The position numbers and the translations under genes are program-made. From an uncultured Bacilli bacterium (lineage in GTDB: Bacteria > Bacillota_I > Bacilli_A > RF39 > UBA660), in the NCBI GenBank assembly GCA_904374795.1, contig CAJFEV010000005.1, positions 1 through 36,791 on the forward strand: DNA of 36,791 nucleotides. Reading direction: 5' to 3'. The notes beneath the pieces are model-generated. The model made no database searches. It worked only from the letters and a program-made list of their open reading frames with translations, and was not told the origin of the DNA. Below are positions 2,576 to 11,518 of the stretch, piece by piece. Position 1 is the first letter of the stretch. Each line of letters starts with the position of its first letter.

Positions 2576-4039
2576 CTACCTCTTAAATTCTACACTTTTA
2601 ATAATTATCTTATCAGTTAATTTATCAACTTTAATAACCTCCACAAAACGTTCTAAAAACTGTTGTTTTTCCTTATTTGTTAAATATCCCCAATTTAATT
2701 TTATATTAGTTACAATATCTTTAATATCATCATAAGAATACGAATCATTGCTATCCTCAATTATTTCATCTAGTTCTAAGATTTTTGACTGTTGTATATT
2801 CTGTTGTTTTTGTATTTCCTCAGTAATTTCATGATATTCATTTACATCTATCAAATCGTTAATAAACTGACTCCTAATAATTTTTTTCTTGTTTTCTAGT
2901 TTTTCAATTTTTTTATTAATTTCTTGTTTCTTTTTTTCAGAATTAATTATTTTTTTTCTTTTCTCCATAATGCTCTTATCAGGAACCATATTCTCTAAAG
3001 TATCTAAATATTCTAAAAATGCTTTTTCCATTGTCTTATGCGAAAAGCCTCCACATTTACAAAAACCTCTACTAGAATTATTACACCTATACGTAATATA
3101 TAATTTGCCACTCTGAGTTTGTTGCCTAGCAGAAATATTACCTCCACAATTTGCACATTTTATAATATGAAAATAATATGAATTTTCACTTGGATAACGT
3201 CTGACACAATATTGCTTTCTTGTTGCAATTATATTATTTGCTAATTTCCATTTTTCTTCATCAATTATTGGTTCTATGTCATTTCCATCCACAGTAAAAG
3301 ATCTATCTTTATTTTTCTCTTGCACTCCATATCTTACTTTACCAACATACAATGGGTTATTAATTATTGATTTTATTGTAGATGAAGCCCAATGTCCACC
3401 TCTCTTTGTAGGAACGTTTTCTTCATTAAATAAATGGGCAATTTTAAAATAAGACTTACCATCTATATATAAATCGAAAATTCTATTAACTAAATCTTTT
3501 TCTTCTTCATTTACAATTATTTTTTTCTCTCCTACAATATAATCGTACCCATAAACACCATTAGTATTAGTATAATTACCTTCTCTAGTTTTTTGTTCAT
3601 AACCAAAAGATACTCTTTCAGCAAGATTTTCCCTTTCAAACTCTGCAAAAATACCAATAATTTTTACAAACATTCTACCCACAGCATTAGATGTATCAAT
3701 TTTTTCGGTTTGAGAATTAAAAGTGCAACTGTGTTTTTCAAACAACTCTATTAAATAAATTAAATCTCTCACGCTTCGTGTTAATCTATCTAGTTTATAT
3801 ATTAATATATTATTTATTTTCCCATCTTCCACATCTTTAAGCAATCTAGTTATTTCAGGTCTATCTTCTAAATTTTTACCACTTATTCCATCATCAACAT
3901 AGTAATCAAAAATATCCCAATCGTTTGCCTCAGCATACTTGGTTAATTTTTCTCTTTGTGCATGAATTGAGAAACCATCTTTTGCTTGATCCTCTGTTGA
4001 AACACGAATATAAATTCCTGTAACTATTTTTTCTTCCAC
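2576..4039 (-). CDS. Large serine recombinase (site-specific integrase)
   Basis: A 487-residue large serine recombinase that catalyses integration and excision between attachment sites. Residues 5-150 are the resolvase domain: the nucleophile is Ser14 in IRVST, followed by YVDDGISGK and YKLDRLTRS. Residues about 160-270 form the recombinase DNA-binding domain. A zinc ribbon follows (CANCGG, then two more cysteines near CNNSSRGFCKCGG), and then a long coiled coil (about 355-425) as in phiC31-type integrases. The start is GTG with GAGGAG upstream. The gene lies about 300 bases from the point where the dacF-like gene breaks off, so it is very likely the enzyme that inserted the element there. 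Confidence 0.93.
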   Translation of the reverse strand: MEEKIVTGIYIRVSTEDQAKDGFSIHAQREKLTKYAEANDWDIFDYYVDDGISGKNLEDRPEITRLLKDVEDGKINNILIYKLDRLTRSVRDLIYLIELFEKHSCTFNSQTEKIDTSNAVGRMFVKIIGIFAEFERENLAERVSFGYEQKTREGNYTNTNGVYGYDYIVGEKKIIVNEEEKDLVNRIFDLYIDGKSYFKIAHLFNEENVPTKRGGHWASSTIKSIINNPLYVGKVRYGVQEKNKDRSFTVDGNDIEPIIDEEKWKLANNIIATRKQYCVRRYPSENSYYFHIIKCANCGGNISARQQTQSGKLYITYRCNNSSRGFCKCGGFSHKTMEKAFLEYLDTLENMVPDKSIMEKRKKIINSEKKKQEINKKIEKLENKKKIIRSQFINDLIDVNEYHEITEEIQKQQNIQQSKILELDEIIEDSNDSYSYDDIKDIVTNIKLNWGYLTNKEKQQFLERFVEVIKVDKLTDKIIIKSVEFKR

Positions 4040-4062
4040 AATATCTATCTCCTCTATTCTGC

Positions 4063-4167
4063 CTAAATAGATTTGATATTTGACTCTAAAATTCTAGGAA
4101 TGCTTGTATTCAAGAAAAATTTCATAATTTCAATTTGTATTTTTCTAGGTATAATATTGTCAATCAT
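4063..4167 (-). CDS. Short ORF just upstream of the serine recombinase
   Basis: A 34-codon ORF (begins MIDNIIPRKIQIEIMKFF) with a GTGGGG box about six bases before its ATG. It ends 23 bases before the recombinase start on the same strand. The spacing and ribosome binding site suggest it is translated with the recombinase, either as a leader peptide or as a small element protein. No homology can be claimed. Confidence 0.4.
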   Translation of the reverse strand: MIDNIIPRKIQIEIMKFFLNTSIPRILESNIKSI

Positions 4168-4268
4168 TGTTATCCCCACTTTCTAATAAAGTATAGATAA
4201 CAGCATTTTAATTTATGCAGTTTAATGTAAAACTTAAATTGACACTATTCGTACAAACATATAAAACT

Positions 4269-4348
4269 ATTGCAAAATATAAATACAAGTCTAATTGTAT
4301 TTACGTTTAACAATAATTGATTTTATTGCAAAATATAAACACGACTTT
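4269..4348. other. Element/chromosome junction (candidate attachment site half)
   Basis: The dacF-like reading frame follows its family up to WLVNTNK, encoded down to about 4346, and then changes to an unrelated 12-residue tail. The break is therefore near 4343-4350. Element-side DNA next to it holds two imperfect direct repeats beginning ATTGCAAAATATAAA (4269-4288 and 4325-4344) and an inverted repeat AAATACAA/TTGTATTT (4281-4288 and 4295-4302). These are plausible binding sites for the recombinase encoded at 2576-4039. The exact crossover bases cannot be fixed without the other end. Confidence 0.55.
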
Positions 4349-4981
4349 ATTGGTATTGACAAGCCATATACTTGAGCCATCATTTTTTTGTAAATAATCT
4401 TCATAAATACTTGTGTATTCCAATATCGTGGGATGTTTTAATAACTCGGATGCCATTAAAGCCATATCATATGCTGTAGTATAATGATCCTCAGCATCTA
4501 AGCCATGAGGATTTACAAAATGCGTGTTTACTGCTCCAAGCTCTTTAGCTCGTTCATTCATTCTAGCAACAAAATCACTTACCGTACCAGAGATTTTTTC
4601 GGCCATTGCCACTACTGCATCATTACCACTTGCTACAGCAATTCCTTTTAAAAGTTCTTTGACTTTATAAGTTTCTCCCGCTTGCAAATATACTTGACTT
4701 CCTCCCATATTTGCAGCATTTTCACTAATTGTAACATCATCTTCTAGACTTAAACTACCATTATCTATAGCTTCCATAATTAAAAGCATGCTCATTACCT
4801 TCGTCATTGATGCAGGGGCAAGCTTTTCCTGTTCATTTTTCTTAAACAAAATCGTATTCGTAGTTGCATCTAACAAAATAGCGCTCTTGCTATTTGGAGC
4901 TAAGTCACTACTTACTTCTTCAGCAGCAACTGAAGGAATAAATAAACTTAACAAAAGTAAAAAACAAATTATTTTTTTCAT
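4307..4981 (-). pseudogene. D-Ala-D-Ala carboxypeptidase (dacF-like), 3' end removed by insertion
   Basis: The product starts as a serine-type D,D-carboxypeptidase (peptidase S11, penicillin-binding protein 5/DacF type). It has a signal peptide (residues 1-20), the catalytic SMTK motif (ASMTKVMSM) and SGN (VASGNDAVV). After residue about 212 (WLVNTNK) the family sequence stops. The KTG motif and the C-terminal domain are missing, replaced by 12 residues read from element DNA. AGAGGTG precedes the start codon. Without the KTG box the fragment should be inactive unless excision of the element restores the gene. The gene is divergent from vanY, another carboxypeptidase. Confidence 0.88.
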
Positions 4982-5058
4982 TGTACACCTCTAGTAAAAA
5001 AGTATGTTAAGTATATATAAATATACCAAAAAATGCTATACTAATAGTAGGTGGTTAT

Positions 5059-6060
5059 ATGAAAAAAGACAAAAAGATTTTAATTATCTTACTATCCATT
5101 TTTCTTATTCTTTGTGTTGCTGGAGTTACTCTTCATTTTACAAAAGACCTTTTTTTCTCAGAAAAAAATATAGAGACTGCAAAAACAGAAAGTCAACTTT
5201 TAGAAGAGAAAGGTGTTGTTTTAGTCAATCGTGAAACCTTTATAAAAGAGGCAAATTCTCTTTTAGAAAAAGGATATTCATCAGAAGAAATCAATAATAT
5301 TTATGAATATATGAGTGAAAAAAATATCCAAAGTATTCTAGCTAACGAATACGTAGATTTAAAAGATTTTTATCAAATTTCTAATTTTGATTTTTCAAAA
5401 ATTGATAGATACAAAGCTTATCAAACTTTAGAAAATATCGAAATGAAAGATGCTGTTACGTGGGTAAATTTAAATTTAGATGAACCTTTCTATCAAACTG
5501 TGGAAACCATTGAAGATCCAGATGCTATTACTGTATTGGTAAACAAAAGTCATGCTTTACCTAGCGACTATGTTCCGGATGATTTAGTAGCAATTCCTAA
5601 CTACCCTTCTTTAAAAATCAAAGACGACGCTGCCCAAGACTTTGAAAACCTTCTTGCAGCTGCGAAATTAGACAATGTTTATATTATCCCATATAGTACG
5701 TATCGTTCTTATGATTATCAAGAGCGTTTATATAATGGATATCTACAAGATGATCCAGTAGAAGTTGTAGATACCTATTCCGCAAGACCAGGACATTCTG
5801 AACACCAGACAGGACTTGCATTAGATGTAAGAAGTAGCACACATTGGAGTAATTTAACAGATTCTGATTACGAATGGATGCTAAATAATTCTTATAAGTA
5901 CGGATTTATTGTTCGTTATCCAAAAGATAATTCGACCATCACAGGATACAAAGAAGAGCCATGGCACATAAGATACATTGGCATTGAACATGCGACTAAA
6001 GTTCATGAACTGGGAATCACTTATGATGAATATTATGATTTATATTTAACCGAACATTAA
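5059..6060 (+). CDS. VanY/DdcY-type D,D-carboxypeptidase, membrane anchored
   Basis: A 333-residue zinc D-Ala-D-Ala carboxypeptidase of the VanY (peptidase M15B) family, which trims the terminal D-Ala from peptidoglycan stems. An N-terminal membrane anchor spans about residues 7-30. A charged stalk follows, and the catalytic domain begins near residue 165. Zinc ligands are His249 and Asp256 in SEHQTGLALDV and His303 in EPWHIRYIG, with Glu300 as general base. AGGTGG sits before the ATG. It is a single gene closed by the terminator at 6059-6091. It could partly cover for the disrupted S11 enzyme next door (inference). Confidence 0.9.
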   Translation: MKKDKKILIILLSIFLILCVAGVTLHFTKDLFFSEKNIETAKTESQLLEEKGVVLVNRETFIKEANSLLEKGYSSEEINNIYEYMSEKNIQSILANEYVDLKDFYQISNFDFSKIDRYKAYQTLENIEMKDAVTWVNLNLDEPFYQTVETIEDPDAITVLVNKSHALPSDYVPDDLVAIPNYPSLKIKDDAAQDFENLLAAAKLDNVYIIPYSTYRSYDYQERLYNGYLQDDPVEVVDTYSARPGHSEHQTGLALDVRSSTHWSNLTDSDYEWMLNNSYKYGFIVRYPKDNSTITGYKEEPWHIRYIGIEHATKVHELGITYDEYYDLYLTEH

Positions 6061-6091
6061 AAAGTAGCCAAATTAAAATGGCTACTTTTTT
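6059..6091. terminator. Bidirectional terminator between vanY and the bacteriocin operon
   Basis: A 12-bp stem AAAAAGTAGCCA (6059-6070) pairs with TGGCTACTTTTT (6079-6090) around an 8-base loop, with T runs readable on both strands. It ends vanY on the plus strand and the bacteriocin transcript on the minus strand. The stop codon of the last bacteriocin gene (6090-6092) overlaps its edge. Confidence 0.85.
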
Positions 6092-6245
6092 AACAATAAC
6101 TTCCTTTAGTCATTCTAGCAATCGAAGAACCAACCGATTTACCTAAATCAAAAAGGAATTGAAAACCACGAATCACAGCATTTACCAAAGCAGCTGTAAT
6201 CGCACCACCTTCAATTTTACACAATTCTTTTTTTCCTAAAATCAT
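6090..6245 (-). CDS. Bacteriocin precursor peptide B (double-glycine leader)
   Basis: A 51-residue peptide. The leader MILGKKELCKIEGG has the double-glycine form (hydrophobic residues at -4 and -7, GG at -2/-1). The predicted mature peptide has 37 residues, from AITAALVNAVIRGF to a C-terminal Cys. It contains a GxxxG motif (GKSVG, residues 35-39), basic residues and a hydrophobic amphipathic middle. An AAAGGAG box lies five bases before the ATG. It follows peptide A by 30 bases on the same transcript, below a C39-peptidase exporter. Together these point to one half of a two-peptide class IIb-like bacteriocin that would form pores in related Gram-positives. No sequence match to a named bacteriocin is claimed. 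Confidence 0.8.
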   Translation of the reverse strand: MILGKKELCKIEGGAITAALVNAVIRGFQFLFDLGKSVGSSIARMTKGSYC

Positions 6246-6275
6246 ACCTACTCCTTTCTATAGTTTTTCCAAATT

Positions 6276-6407
6276 TCATTCATGACAAGATAAAGGTCTT
6301 ATAAAACCATCAATCACGCCGATAACAAACGTTATTGCACCAGCTACTACTCCAGCAATTAATAACCATCCACCTCCTTGTACTTGAAGTAGTTCATTAC
6401 GATTCAT
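6276..6407 (-). CDS. Bacteriocin precursor peptide A (double-glycine leader)
   Basis: A 43-residue peptide with leader MNRNELLQVQGG, a textbook double-glycine leader (ELLQVQGG). The predicted mature peptide has 31 residues and starts GWLLIAGVVAGA. It has two GxxxG motifs (GVVAG, residues 19-23, and GVIDG, residues 30-34), the helix-helix contact motif typical of two-peptide bacteriocins, and a Cys near the C-terminus. Its ATG overlaps the stop of the upstream gene (TAATG). The only strong Shine-Dalgarno (AGGAGG) is 15 bases upstream inside that gene, so translation is probably coupled. Peptide B follows directly. Confidence 0.8.
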   Translation of the reverse strand: MNRNELLQVQGGGWLLIAGVVAGAITFVIGVIDGFIRPLSCHE

Positions 6408-6838
6408 TACGATAGGGCATCACCTCCTTTCAAGTTTTCCCATAGGATTTGCCAAATATTTTTTTCATCTTTTTGAATAAAAAAGGAAACTGTTTGATTC
6501 TCATAAAAATCTTGTTTAGGAATAATAAAAACAACTTTTTGAAAAGCAACATTATTAATAATTTCTGCATCATAAATTTTAGAAACTTTAAAATCTTGTT
6601 CTTGTTTATTCAAGAAGAATTTTTGTGTATCGTTCATTTTTAAAATATCTGAAACCAAGAAATACGACGTGATCGTACATTCCTTTTTTCCACAAGAATA
6701 TACCCCCTCATAAGTAAGTCCACTTTTAAAAGAAAATTTTGAAAAAAAACATAGCAAGAAAAGAAGAAATCCAAAACTTAAAAAACTTAAAAACTTAATT
6801 TGAGGATTTATTTTTTTTAATGAAAAACGATTATCCAT
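6407..6838 (-). CDS. Membrane-anchored accessory protein of the bacteriocin locus
   Basis: A 143-residue protein with one N-terminal membrane segment (about residues 15-35) and a beta-rich outer part of about 100 residues that includes a CGKKEC pair. It overlaps the end of the exporter gene by 8 bases and the start of peptide A by one base, so it belongs to the operon. By position it could be a very short membrane-fusion (HlyD/LcnD-like) accessory protein, since those are normally over 400 residues and also have one N-terminal anchor. It could instead be the immunity protein. I see no motif that decides between these. Confidence 0.6.
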   Translation of the reverse strand: MDNRFSLKKINPQIKFLSFLSFGFLLFLLCFFSKFSFKSGLTYEGVYSCGKKECTITSYFLVSDILKMNDTQKFFLNKQEQDFKVSKIYDAEIINNVAFQKVVFIIPKQDFYENQTVSFFIQKDEKNIWQILWENLKGGDALS

Positions 6839-8867
6839 TGGATAGATTCACCACTCTTTCAAACATTTTAGAATGATCTCGATGACTTATATAAATTAAA
6901 GTTTTATCTTGCAAATACTTGCGAAGATTTTTAATAATTTTCTTTTCTAATCGTTCATCTACTTCACTTAAACATTCATCAAGCAAATAAATTTCTCCTT
7001 TTTTTAATAAAGTTCTAGCAAGCAATACTCTTTGCTTTTCTCCACCAGACAAATTTTCTTCATGAATAATTGTTTCGTAGCGTAATGCCCTTTTACAAAC
7101 GACACTCTCCAGTTCACAAATTTCACAAATTTCTTGAAAATCTTCAACCGAAAAATCTGAATAAAAGGCAATATTTTCTTTAATCGATTTTTTTAATAAA
7201 GGTTCCTTCTGACTTAAATAAACAATATTCTCACGAATTGTCGCCAAATTATAATCTTTTAAGTTTTGGCCTCCTATTAAAATCGTACCTGTATATTCTT
7301 CTACTTCCCTAATAAGCAAACGACATATTGTACTTTTACCTACGCCACTAGGCCCTTTTAAAAAAACATGTTCATGATTTTCTAAATCTATAGAAAGATG
7401 TTCTAAAGAAGGAACAATTGGCGTATAAGAAAAAGTAACATCCTTAAACGTTATCGAAGTATCTACCATTTTTATAATTGGATCATCTATATTCTCTTCT
7501 ACTAAAGCCATATATTCACTAATTTTACTTAAAACTCCTTTTAAATAATAAAATTTTGGTAAAACATCCATAAATTCTTTTAAAGGTGTTAATAAATAAG
7601 TGTATAAACTTTGAAAAGTCAAAAAATTTAAACCGGAAAGACTTCCTTGAAAATATAAATACATCCCATAAGTTAAAAGAATAAAACCAAGTACTTCTAA
7701 TCCAAAATTTTTAAAAATTTCAATTCTCTCTACTTTTACTTGATAACCTAACTTTTCTTTTATATGATGAGCCAAACCTTCTTCTAAACTCCTAATATGT
7801 TTGTTAGATGCATGTAGATGCTTTACCGGTTCAAACAAACGAATCCCTTCTAATAAATGTTCTTGCCATATACTTTCTTGTTCCATATGCATAAGTATGA
7901 TTCGGTATAAAGCTTTAGAAAATAAAAATCCAACGAGAAAATATACGCCTACACCAATACTTAATACAAGCAAGAGTTCTTTACTTAAAAAATATAAAAT
8001 AAAGAAAGACGAAAAGCCAAGAAAGGAATTTAAAGCAATGGATACAAAGACATCAGCAAAAATTTCTTTAATTTCTCTTGCTTCGGCTATTCTAGTAAGT
8101 ACTTCTCCAGTCTGATAACTTTTAAATTTTAATAAAGGAATTTTAAAAATATGAGCTAAAAAAGAATACATATAATCTATCTCAATATCCTTACTTAAAT
8201 AAAGCCTACACATTTCCTTAAGATAGAAAAATACGGAACGTAAGACAAGTAAACTTCCAAAAAAGAAAACCATATACCAAAACGTTTTATCCCAAACGAT
8301 ATTTTGATATTGATGTAAACTTACTTTTAAATAAAAACTTTCTAAAATAGGTAAAACAGAAAGCAAAAAACTTAAAAAGATAAGAAAGAAAACTTTTCTT
8401 TTATACATAAAAAGAATATTTTTTAAAAAAGTAACAACACTCTTTTCCTTAGGCATCTTTAGAATCATACCCTGAGGAATAACTTCTAAAACAATCCCAT
8501 CCCATTGTTCTTTAAAAGTTTCCAAAGACATCTTTCTTTTACCAACAGCTGGATCCATTAAAAGAATTTCTTTTTTATGAACCTTTTGTATAATCATAAA
8601 ATGCTCTAAACCATTTTTTAAACGAAAATGTCCAATTGCCGGAAACATGCATTTTTCTAATTCTTCTAATGAGACTTTTTTTCCTACAGCATCAAAACCA
8701 TATTTTTTTAATGTTTGAACTAAAAAATAGGCATTTGTTCCATTATGCGTTGTAAAAGTATCTTCTCGTAACTTTTCCATAGGAACGAATCCACCGTAGT
8801 ACTGGATAAGATAAGACAGGCAAGTTACTCCACAGTCTTTCGCGTCCCATTGTCTAATTTTCTTCAC
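6831..8867 (-). CDS. Bacteriocin ABC exporter with C39 leader peptidase
   Basis: A peptidase-containing ABC transporter that cleaves double-glycine leaders and exports the mature peptide. The real start is the GTG at 8867, eight bases after AAGGAG; the in-frame codon at 8897 would add ten residues. Counting from the GTG, the C39 domain has Cys12 (AKDCGVTCLSY), His89 (LEHFMII) and Asp105 (MDPA). Membrane segments fill about residues 155-420. The ATPase domain has Walker A GPSGVGKST, signature LSGGEKQR, Walker B IYLLDE and H-loop SHRD. Length (678) is normal for the family. It heads the operon exporter, accessory protein, peptide A, peptide B. Confidence 0.93.
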   Translation of the reverse strand: MKKIRQWDAKDCGVTCLSYLIQYYGGFVPMEKLREDTFTTHNGTNAYFLVQTLKKYGFDAVGKKVSLEELEKCMFPAIGHFRLKNGLEHFMIIQKVHKKEILLMDPAVGKRKMSLETFKEQWDGIVLEVIPQGMILKMPKEKSVVTFLKNILFMYKRKVFFLIFLSFLLSVLPILESFYLKVSLHQYQNIVWDKTFWYMVFFFGSLLVLRSVFFYLKEMCRLYLSKDIEIDYMYSFLAHIFKIPLLKFKSYQTGEVLTRIAEAREIKEIFADVFVSIALNSFLGFSSFFILYFLSKELLLVLSIGVGVYFLVGFLFSKALYRIILMHMEQESIWQEHLLEGIRLFEPVKHLHASNKHIRSLEEGLAHHIKEKLGYQVKVERIEIFKNFGLEVLGFILLTYGMYLYFQGSLSGLNFLTFQSLYTYLLTPLKEFMDVLPKFYYLKGVLSKISEYMALVEENIDDPIIKMVDTSITFKDVTFSYTPIVPSLEHLSIDLENHEHVFLKGPSGVGKSTICRLLIREVEEYTGTILIGGQNLKDYNLATIRENIVYLSQKEPLLKKSIKENIAFYSDFSVEDFQEICEICELESVVCKRALRYETIIHEENLSGGEKQRVLLARTLLKKGEIYLLDECLSEVDERLEKKIIKNLRKYLQDKTLIYISHRDHSKMFERVVNLSNG

Positions 8868-8916: not shown

Positions 8917-9657
8917 TTATTTTTTGTGAATTTTTTTCATTTTTTTATTTTTTTTCTTTTTTTCCTCAATTTTCTTCATTATTTCAAATTCTTTAGGGTG
9001 ACTTTTCCATAAAGTAGGAAAGGCTTTTAACAAACGTTTAGGAAACTTTTTCATTCCTTTTACTCGGCTTGTCAACATTCTTTCAAACATCCCAGGAATT
9101 TTAGAAAGTTTTTCATTTTTTAAATCTTCAACCACAATCAAACGATGACGAAGGTTATAAGCTACGACACAAGAATAAGTAACATCTAACAAGAAAATAA
9201 TAAAAAGAATAACACTTGTCCAAATTAAAGTAGCGTTTTCAAATTGAATTAAAAAATCCGTCATATAAGGATTTAAAATATAGAGAATAATTGGTCCTCC
9301 AAGTCCAAATAAAATCGTGTTTTTTAAACAAATACGCCCATGAAGATTAAATTTTTCTTTACTATAATCCCACCATTTATTATGAAAAATTTTCTCTAAA
9401 GCATAACCAGTAAAATATTCAATGGTTGTAGTAATAAACATACTAAGTAATATTACTAAAAAAATATTTTCTTTAAAGGGTTCTAAAATCCAAATAAGAA
9501 GTAAGCTTCCTACTCCATAAATAGGGATAATTGGCCCACAAAAAAAACCACGATTAGCAATTTTTTTATCTACAATTGCACACATAATCATTTCCACAAC
9601 GTAACCAATCATGCTAAATAAAAGAAATTTCATAAAAAGTAAACAAATTTGATACAT
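8917..9657 (-). CDS. CmpB-family membrane protein (putative ABC permease)
   Basis: A 246-residue protein with about five membrane segments in the first 170 residues (for example GYVVEMIMCAIVD, FFCGPIIPIYGVGSLLLIW and NTILFGLGGPIILYIL) and a very basic, lysine-rich C-terminal tail. The pattern with NRGFFCGPIIPIYG matches the family annotated as putative ABC-transporter type IV permease (CmpB), found widely in Firmicutes. The function of this family is not established. It lies 49 bases upstream of the bacteriocin exporter on the same strand, so it may be cotranscribed, but it is probably a neighbour and not part of the system. Confidence 0.75.
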   Translation of the reverse strand: MYQICLLFMKFLLFSMIGYVVEMIMCAIVDKKIANRGFFCGPIIPIYGVGSLLLIWILEPFKENIFLVILLSMFITTTIEYFTGYALEKIFHNKWWDYSKEKFNLHGRICLKNTILFGLGGPIILYILNPYMTDFLIQFENATLIWTSVILFIIFLLDVTYSCVVAYNLRHRLIVVEDLKNEKLSKIPGMFERMLTSRVKGMKKFPKRLLKAFPTLWKSHPKEFEIMKKIEEKKKKNKKMKKIHKK

Positions 9658-9687: not shown

Positions 9688-9759
9688 TAATCCGCGATAA
9701 ATCATGTAATAAAATTTTGTAATATTCATATGATGTGATAGATGCTTAGGAGGAATATT

Positions 9760-10263
9760 ATGATTAATAAACAAAGTGTATGGTTTGTAACTCTATTTAG
9801 TCTTATTTTAGTTTTATCGATTTATTATGTCACCATGAAGGATAGTAGCTTGGCAGCTATTTTAGAAAATACGGATTCTACTACAAGTGTTCCAGTAAAT
9901 GTAGATGTTGAAGAAAGTAGCCTTTTAGTTTCTCTTAGAGTCAGCGAAGACGAAAGCGTTTTAAAAGAAATGGAAAACTATCAAGCTATATTAATGGATA
10001 CAACAAAAACAACCGAAGAAAAAAATAATGCGTACAATTCATTAATGGCTTTGCAAAACAAAAAAAGTGATGAAGAAAAAATTGAGAAAAAAATTAAAGA
10101 AACCTATCAATTAGATAGTTTTGCTAAAATTAGTAAAGACACCATAAGTATTGTTATTGCTAGCACCGATCATTCAAATACACTTGCAAATAATATTATT
10201 AGAACTGTTCAAGAATTATTTGATGAGGAAAAATACATTACTGTAAAATTTCAAAATGCATAA
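9760..10263 (+). CDS. spoIIIAH: SpoIIIAH-like sporulation channel protein
   Basis: A protein of about 167 residues: a short cytoplasmic N-terminus, one membrane segment (about residues 7-25), a low-complexity linker, a coiled-coil middle and a C-terminal domain of the YscJ/ring-building type, as in SpoIIIAH. In the family this mother-cell protein binds SpoIIQ across the forespore envelope. AGGAGG before MINKQSVW places the start at 9760, not at the in-frame ATG at 9742. Unlike in B. subtilis, no other spoIIIA genes are nearby. It is followed by gerE and gerM, and GerM supports this same channel in B. subtilis. The assignment rests on the overall pattern. Confidence 0.75.
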   Translation: MINKQSVWFVTLFSLILVLSIYYVTMKDSSLAAILENTDSTTSVPVNVDVEESSLLVSLRVSEDESVLKEMENYQAILMDTTKTTEEKNNAYNSLMALQNKKSDEEKIEKKIKETYQLDSFAKISKDTISIVIASTDHSNTLANNIIRTVQELFDEEKYITVKFQNA

Positions 10264-10329
10264 GACACCTCTTTTCTTTCTTATCATAAAATACTATAAG
10301 TAGGTTTATGGAAAAGAAAGGGTGATGAC

Positions 10330-10536
10330 ATGAAGCAAAAAATACTTACACCGCGAGAAAAAGAGATTTTTGAAAAGTTAATTCAAAATTATACAACCAA
10401 AGACATTGCAAAAGATTTAAACATCAGTGAAAAAACTGTTCGCAATCATATTTCAAATGCAATGCAAAAATTAGAAGTTAAAGGTCGTGCAAGCGCCGTC
10501 GTAGAGCTTCTGCGTTTAGGTGAGATATCAATTTAA
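10330..10536 (+). CDS. gerE: GerE, LuxR-type regulator of late sporulation
   Basis: A 68-residue protein that is a single LuxR/GerE helix-turn-helix domain. It has LTPREKEIFEKLIQNYTTKDIA, then ISEKTVRNHISNAMQKL and VKGRASAVVELLRLGEI. The last parts are nearly identical to B. subtilis GerE (74 residues), the last mother-cell regulator, which acts with sigma-K on coat genes. The stretch CATAAAATA at 10285-10293, with ACACC 15 bases before it, fits a sigma-K-type promoter (weak evidence). A terminator follows immediately at 10535. The gene lies between spoIIIAH and gerM. Confidence 0.9.
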   Translation: MKQKILTPREKEIFEKLIQNYTTKDIAKDLNISEKTVRNHISNAMQKLEVKGRASAVVELLRLGEISI

Positions 10537-10564
10537 GAAAGTTTTTAAAGACTTTCTTTTTTTA
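10535..10564 (+). terminator. Terminator after gerE
   Basis: A perfect 8-bp stem AAGAAAGT (10535-10542) / ACTTTCTT (10551-10558) is followed by a T run. It begins on the gerE stop codon and lies before the true gerM start, so gerM is at least partly on its own transcript. Confidence 0.75.
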
Positions 10565-10612
10565 GTTCTTCTTTCTTTTTCTTTATCATATTCTTTATTA
10601 GGTGATTTATCG

Positions 10613-11518
10613 ATGATTAAAAATTGCGTCAAAAGAAAACTCATTATCACAACTTTTGCCTTACTTATTTTTTTAATCACATTAACATTTCCTAGAACCG
10701 AAGAAGAAATAAAAAATGTAACCATAACATATACAGAAGCAAAACCCTCACCTATTTATTTATTAAACAATGAAGAATTTGTTTCGAGAACGGATGTTTC
10801 TATAAAAAGTGAAACTACTATAGATCAAGCAAAAGAAATACTAGAAATCCTGACAATTGATAATGCTAAATCGGCTTATATTCCTAATTTTTTCTCACCT
10901 ATTTTACCTAAAAATACAAAAATAATAAGCATAGATATTCAAGATACAACTTTAAAAATAAATTTTAGTAAAGAGTTTTTTAGTATTCCAAAAGGTTACG
11001 AAGAAAAAGCTTTAGAATGTTTGGTATATTCCCTAACGGAACTTGATGGTATTGATGGAATTATTCTTTATGTTGATGGGAGTATGCTAGAAACACTACC
11101 AAATAGCAATAAGAAACTACCTCCTCTATTAACAAGAGATATTGGTATTAATAAAGTTTATGATTTATCCGGATTAAAAAATGTAACCAAAACAACGACT
11201 TATTACATAGCTAAAGAAGAAGATACGTCTTATTATATTCCAGTAACGTTACTTGAAAATACCGAAAAAGATAAAGTAGAAATTATTATTGAACGCTTAA
11301 AAACAAATCCAAGTATTCAAACAAATTTAATTAGTTATTTAACAGCTAATACTGAACTTACTAATTATGAAATTTTAGAAAGTGAAATCAAATTAAGTTT
11401 TAGTCCTTTACTTTATGAAGGACTAGCTTCACAAGATATTGAAGAAGAAGTAAAATACTCGATATCTTTATCCATGCAAGATACTTTAAATGTAGAAAAT
11501 GTTACCTTTGTTGAATAG
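10613..11518 (+). CDS. gerM: GerM-like sporulation/germination lipoprotein-type protein
   Basis: A 301-residue protein with an N-terminal membrane segment (about residues 9-25) and two GerMN domains in tandem. The first includes INFSKEFFSIPKGYEEKALECLVYSLTEL with GIILYVDG, and the second has LSFSPLLYEG and EEVKYSISLSMQD. In B. subtilis GerM helps assemble the SpoIIIAH-SpoIIQ channel. The start at 10613 is chosen because AGGTGA (10600-10605) precedes it; the longer frame from 10520 would run through the gerE terminator. I see no lipobox cysteine, so the anchor is probably the membrane segment itself. Confidence 0.8.
   Translation: MIKNCVKRKLIITTFALLIFLITLTFPRTEEEIKNVTITYTEAKPSPIYLLNNEEFVSRTDVSIKSETTIDQAKEILEILTIDNAKSAYIPNFFSPILPKNTKIISIDIQDTTLKINFSKEFFSIPKGYEEKALECLVYSLTELDGIDGIILYVDGSMLETLPNSNKKLPPLLTRDIGINKVYDLSGLKNVTKTTTYYIAKEEDTSYYIPVTLLENTEKDKVEIIIERLKTNPSIQTNLISYLTANTELTNYEILESEIKLSFSPLLYEGLASQDIEEEVKYSISLSMQDTLNVENVTFVE

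Follow-up and report, generated by a model that had tools for sequence, protein, structure and literature searches.

The window, meaning here the whole 36,791-nucleotide stretch of DNA under analysis, contains on its minus strand a C39-peptidase ABC exporter gene, a 143-aa accessory gene and the genes for two very small peptide precursors, pep1 and pep2, all tightly packed or overlapping (Table 1). A reading made from the sequence alone (the sequence-only reading) had described genes of 43 and 51 codons with double-glycine leaders, and both open reading frames were found as described. It had also placed a Cys at or near the end of each mature part, in agreement with the single Cys at position 29 of 31 in pep1 and the single Cys that forms the last residue of pep2. 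Good Shine-Dalgarno sequences lie ahead of pep1 (AAAGGAGGTGA) and pep2 (AGAAAGGAG). The GTG at 8867 is likewise preceded by a good Shine-Dalgarno sequence (AGAAAGGAG) and is therefore the likely start of the exporter, which fits the end previously given for the locus.

Table 1. Features of the exporter–peptide locus (positions in the window)
Feature	Position	Strand	Remarks
C39-peptidase ABC exporter	6831..8867	-	678 aa counted from the GTG at 8867; the longest ORF extends to 8897
Accessory gene, 143 aa	6407..6838	-	N-terminal TM helix and extracytoplasmic beta-barrel (model)
Peptide 1 (pep1) precursor, 43 aa	6276..6407	-	start overlaps end of accessory gene
pep1 double-glycine leader MNRNELLQVQGG	6372..6407	-	GG invariant in alignment
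pep1 mature part GWLLIAGVVAGAITFVIGVIDGFIRPLSCHE, 31 aa	6279..6371	-	family consensus FxIGVIDGxxRPLxC
Peptide 2 (pep2) precursor, 51 aa	6090..6245	-	30 nt after pep1
pep2 double-glycine leader MILGKKELCKIEGG	6204..6245	-	GG invariant in alignment
pep2 mature part AITAALVNAVIRGFQFLFDLGKSVGSSIARMTKGSYC, 37 aa	6093..6203	-	family consensus LGRSxGSAIRR......C
PF06541 (CmpB family) membrane protein, upstream neighbour	8917..9657	-	Pfam

Pfam searches assigned Peptidase_C39 (PF03412, E 3e-32), ABC_membrane (PF00664) and ABC_tran (PF00005) domains to the exporter, and its triad positions, read from the sequence, carry DCG, EHF and MDP, bearing out the intact Cys-His-Asp triad that had been claimed for it. 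Despite the three domains, the protein scores below the cut-off of the bacteriocin_ABC profile TIGR01193 (316.7 vs 523.85 bits). Almost every genome of the window's genus has an orthologue of the exporter. The accessory gene, which the sequence-only reading had not mentioned, has no Pfam or NCBIfam match by sequence, and a sequence search of the peptides and the accessory protein against solved structures gave nothing convincing. Its AlphaFold2 model (56 sequences, pLDDT 91.5) has one helix at the N-terminus, then a beta-barrel, and a short helix at the C-terminus. When this model was submitted to VIA-align, 23 of the best 24 rows were membrane-fusion or efflux adaptor proteins (MacA, BesA, AcrA, MexA, CusB, EmrA, ZneB, Spr0693 and one putative adaptor; Z 8.6-7.0), with alignments spanning 76-104 residues; the first unrelated row had a Z of 7.2, and the HlyB/D complex appeared at Z 5.6 over 131 residues. 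The accessory protein is thus modelled as, and is probably, a minimal membrane-fusion (HlyD/MacA-like) adaptor. Like LcnD, MesE, HlyD and MacA, it has an N-terminal TM helix and a barrel domain and partners an ABC exporter; unlike them, it has only 143 aa, is too short for a lipoyl domain, lacks the alpha-hairpin in its model and matches no sequence profile. The gene is missing from some genera.

The mature parts of both peptides were said to contain GxxxG motifs, and this holds well beyond the window: the motif occurs in 166 of 172 pep1 (96.5%) and 171 of 172 pep2 (99.4%) mature sequences, against 53% and 28%, respectively, expected from shuffled composition. Mean pairwise identity, calculated for sets of loci that differ somewhat from gene to gene, was 0.45 for mature pep1 and 0.38 for mature pep2, 0.47 and 0.46 for the corresponding leaders, and 0.34, 0.20 and 0.57 for the exporter, the accessory protein and YqeY; that is, the mature parts are nearly as conserved as the leaders, and more so than the exporter. 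As a rule the leader of a class II bacteriocin is retained while the mature part diverges; in this pair both are kept. Both peptides are under purifying selection, and between the window's pep1 and that of a close relative (G014, locus L113) 12 codons differ, all of them synonymously. Such synonymous-only change, together with conservation across the family, rules out that pep1 and pep2 are chance short open reading frames. A model of the pair as a fusion, with the intergenic stop codons read as glycine, showed two helices (pLDDT 72.8) and served only as an aid; Foldseek returned no match to it.

We compared the peptides with known bacteriocin families. The adjacent pair of different double-glycine precursors and the C39 exporter are what class IIb systems comprise, and pep1 and pep2 both carry the GxxxG or GxxxG-like motif that is a class IIb criterion for the helices of the two peptides (PMC8538875). 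In these respects, and in having an exporter with an accessory protein, the locus resembles those of lactococcin G, plantaricin EF/JK and thermophilin 13; an extra small single-TM gene, found in some loci of this lineage, is a further likeness to class IIb systems. The pep1 precursors also show similarity, leader included, to the profiles TIGR03949 (lactobin A/cerein 7B) and NF038034 (lactococcin G-beta/enterocin 1071B), each matched by 32 of 36 members at E<=1. The window's pep1, however, falls below the curated cut-offs of both (19.9 vs 21.5 bits and 24.3 vs 37 bits), and mature pep1 and pep2 searched alone gave no meaningful NCBIfam match, consistent with the earlier remark that neither mature sequence was recognisable. 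Since the cut-offs are not reached and the mature parts match nothing, we do not file the pair under a known bacteriocin family. The system differs from class IIb bacteriocins in other respects as well: its mature parts are unrelated to theirs by profile, its accessory protein is reduced to a TM helix and a barrel, it has no recognised immunity gene in the window, it is a core, vertically inherited trait of a whole family, and each of its peptides has a near-invariant tail Cys, the two being lost jointly. In thermophilin 13, cysteines occur only in ThmA (PMC10059821).

The family sampled, which from its genus names we take to be UBA660 of order RF39, is uncultured and mostly gut-dwelling, and nearly all of the 150 genera in the sample are known only from assembled genomes. 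Records of relatives are named as uncultured Bacilli, Bacillales, Mollicutes or Tenericutes, or as Candidatus Pelethosoma or Faecisoma; some are labelled only Bacillota, Firmicutes, Erysipelotrichaceae or uncultured bacterium. Relatives of the window's pep1 were found in 265 of 291 family genomes and 144 of 150 genera (E<=1, most below 1e-4). The sample of the window's order, 193 species, falls entirely within this one family, and the pep1 profile found members in the genomes of 182 (E<=0.01). About nine of every ten species in the family encode the pair together with its own exporter. In the class and phylum samples outside the family, matches were weak and nearly all confined to the leader region, and presence there was rejected on these grounds. 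pep1 and pep2 are adjacent and on the same strand in 78 of 80 fetched loci, and the order exporter–(accessory)–pep1–pep2 is fixed across them. In some genera an extra, unrelated double-glycine-leader peptide of 36-43 aa lies near pep1 (loci L035, L127, L294, L302 and L305).

The cluster is lost as a unit. Nine of the 11 order genomes without pep1 also lack pep2 and, by Pfam search, the orthologous exporter; the other two keep exporter and pep2, and one of these has a contig break within the locus. The cluster is also syntenic, follows the genus tree and is vertically inherited. It is mostly single-copy, and in the exporter tree 11 of 12 testable genera were monophyletic, including all 20 genomes used from the window's genus. 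Two upstream neighbourhoods are each common to many genera, one with rsmD and two small genes, the other with divergently oriented genes for SpoIIIAH-, GerE- and Germane-domain proteins, and S21 and YqeY lie downstream in many genera. In the window itself, SpoIIIAH-like, GerE-like HTH (68 aa) and Germane-domain genes occupy positions 9742-11518, divergent from the operon, the place in which they recur in many genera. Next to the exporter, the PF06541 gene (cluster c7) is found in most members of the window's genus and in only a few other genera.

These patterns bear on whether the locus is an ordinary class IIb bacteriocin that became widespread through frequent horizontal transfer within the family. 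Its class IIb-like gene content and the matches of its precursors to TIGR03949 and NF038034 would fit such an origin, but the monophyly of genera in the exporter tree and the kept neighbourhoods (rsmD/S21/yqeY or spore-gene neighbours) do not, and we consider this explanation, already disfavoured, very improbable. A search of plasmid DNA found nothing similar and no relative was confirmed in viral contigs; these results count against horizontal transfer too, and led us to reject a mobile or plasmid-borne bacteriocin. The anatomy of the locus is class IIb-like, as had been described, but to call it a complete bacteriocin locus goes too far. Its being core, mostly single-copy and vertically inherited, with strongly conserved mature parts, is unlike typical bacteriocin loci, and it looks like a core trait of the family rather than a strain-specific bacteriocin.

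The link between the two tail cysteines, which had also gone unmentioned before, was followed in 173 pairs (175 distinct pairs minus two mispairings). pep1 ends in RPLxC(N/H), and pep2 in Cys or in Cys plus one to a few residues. A tail Cys is present in both peptides in about 163 of 173 pairs, in neither in 10, and in one only in 0. Two apparent half-pairs (L035 and L294) were mispaired with the extra double-glycine peptide; the true pep1 has the tail Cys. The ten pairs without a canonical tail Cys are those of G305, G382 and G187 and seven second-type pairs of genus g46, spread in all over four genera. In G081 and G368 (loci L258 and L304, genus g46), a Cys/Cys pair stands in tandem with a pair lacking the tail Cys; G376 (locus L308) appears to be a third such case, although its first pep1 was not found in the fetched stretch. 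The second-type pairs of g46 are a weaker case, because their pep1 carries a Cys at the position of the IDG aspartate, for which pep2 has no constant partner. Exactly one Cys per mature peptide is found in 143 of 172 pairs, the window's included, so that an internal bridge is unavailable in most pairs. A bond between the peptides best explains why the tail cysteines are present or absent jointly in four genera, and this suggests a disulfide-linked pep1–pep2 heterodimer. The joint pattern would also result if both tails shared a modification. Counting against a disulfide are the lack of a thiol-disulfide oxidoreductase in the operon, the rarity of DsbD_TM (in only 9 of 58 family genomes, though the window's genome has one) and the anoxic state of the gut. 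AhpC-TSA occurs in 24 of the 58 genomes, and the window's genome has this domain as well.

Known class IIb immunity proteins are structurally diverse, membrane-associated and usually encoded in the operon. The sequence-only reading had called the locus the full set expected, which goes too far, as the window has no recognisable immunity gene. Some loci from genera other than the window's (about 30 of 78) have, after pep2, a gene for a ~50-aa single-TM protein, pep3, whose C-terminal part repeats a pep2-like LGRxxGTxIR motif, often with a Cys. Neither the window's genome nor three of four other genus members tested gave a match to the pep3 profile, and the match in the fourth (G034) is the pep2 of that genome. 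Orphan copies that might serve as resistance were not found in genomes without the pair, a match in G188 covering the TM half only, and that role was rejected. pep3 could be an immunity protein, an anchor or a receptor. It is comparable in size to CbnZ, a 42-aa protein, also single-TM, that confers immunity to the class IIb carnobacteriocin XY (PMC8538875), which offers a precedent in size.

Our best reading, drawn from sequence features, is that pep1 and pep2 form a membrane-active pair of class IIb-like type, which the lineage retains as a core trait. The C39 exporter, with its miniature adaptor, would cut both precursors after the double glycine, releasing two hydrophobic helical peptides that act together as one unit. 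Their helices would pack in the membrane through the GxxxG motifs, and a disulfide between the C-terminal tails would make the pair a covalent heterodimer. This heterodimer may then insert into or cross a membrane, as do class IIb pairs, which have no covalent bond, and the producing lineage would retain it as a core function. In favour of the mechanism we counted pairing, the GxxxG excess, the coupling of the cysteines, the adaptor-like accessory protein, joint loss and the similarity in size of pep3 to CbnZ, and against it the lack of a recognised immunity gene in the window and of a pep3 profile match in the window's genome; on balance we think the mechanism as a whole rather probable. The most likely single role, held with slightly less than even confidence, is that of a fixed weapon, common to the whole lineage, against competing bacteria, and self- or kin-directed signal or envelope roles are, taken jointly, about as likely. 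The sequence does not tell antagonism, signalling and an envelope role apart.

Instead of being a weapon, the two peptides could be a core signalling or developmental pair, a heterodimer that kin cells perceive or that works on the envelope of its producer (density sensing, sporulation and membrane remodelling are examples). Such a role would account for a near-universal, mostly single-copy and vertically inherited locus, for mature parts conserved nearly as well as the leaders and above the exporter, for the lack of both a recognised immunity gene in the window and orphan pep3 in pair-less genomes, and for an operon divergent from SpoIIIAH-, GerE- and Germane-domain genes in many genera. No histidine kinase, response regulator or receptor, however, is among the annotated genes that recur beside the locus, the spore-gene neighbourhood is not common to all genera, and two hydrophobic GxxxG helices with a possible membrane-tethered pep3 look more like membrane-active peptides. 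We regard this explanation as possible, though somewhat doubtful. We are similarly tentative about a broader proposal, that the locus is a family-defining core secretion system whose disulfide-linked heterodimer serves a physiological role (in signalling, development or the envelope), and that pep3, a membrane-tethered copy of one half, is its receptor, anchor or brake.

A secreted two-peptide system in about nine in ten species would be one of the family's few defining traits, and would raise the question of whether bacteriocin-like pairs can be housekeeping molecules. If the pair is antimicrobial, animal gut communities would contain a widespread factor that has gone unrecognised; the word 'bacteriocin' was not found in a text search of papers on this order. 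Mature pep1 and pep2, of 31 and 37 residues, are directly testable molecules.

Several other features were seen in the window and in the genomes searched. At positions 2576-4981 of the window, a large serine recombinase gene adjoins a D-Ala-D-Ala carboxypeptidase gene of only 224 aa, whose counterpart at the same place in relatives (cluster c10) has about 387 aa; this is probably an integrative element inserted in the carboxypeptidase gene. Loci L246-L252, from Mollicutes-like families (f4 and f15), encode double-glycine-leader precursors that are longer than the window's. They resemble pep2 in the leader and at the start of the mature part, and several share a conserved tail of another kind around 'GNxSFxxD'; these are possibly a second lineage-wide type of exported peptide. 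Finally, another place in the window's genome (L132, G000:C38, positions 4644-5267) encodes a 207-aa protein that is a C39-like peptidase domain standing alone.
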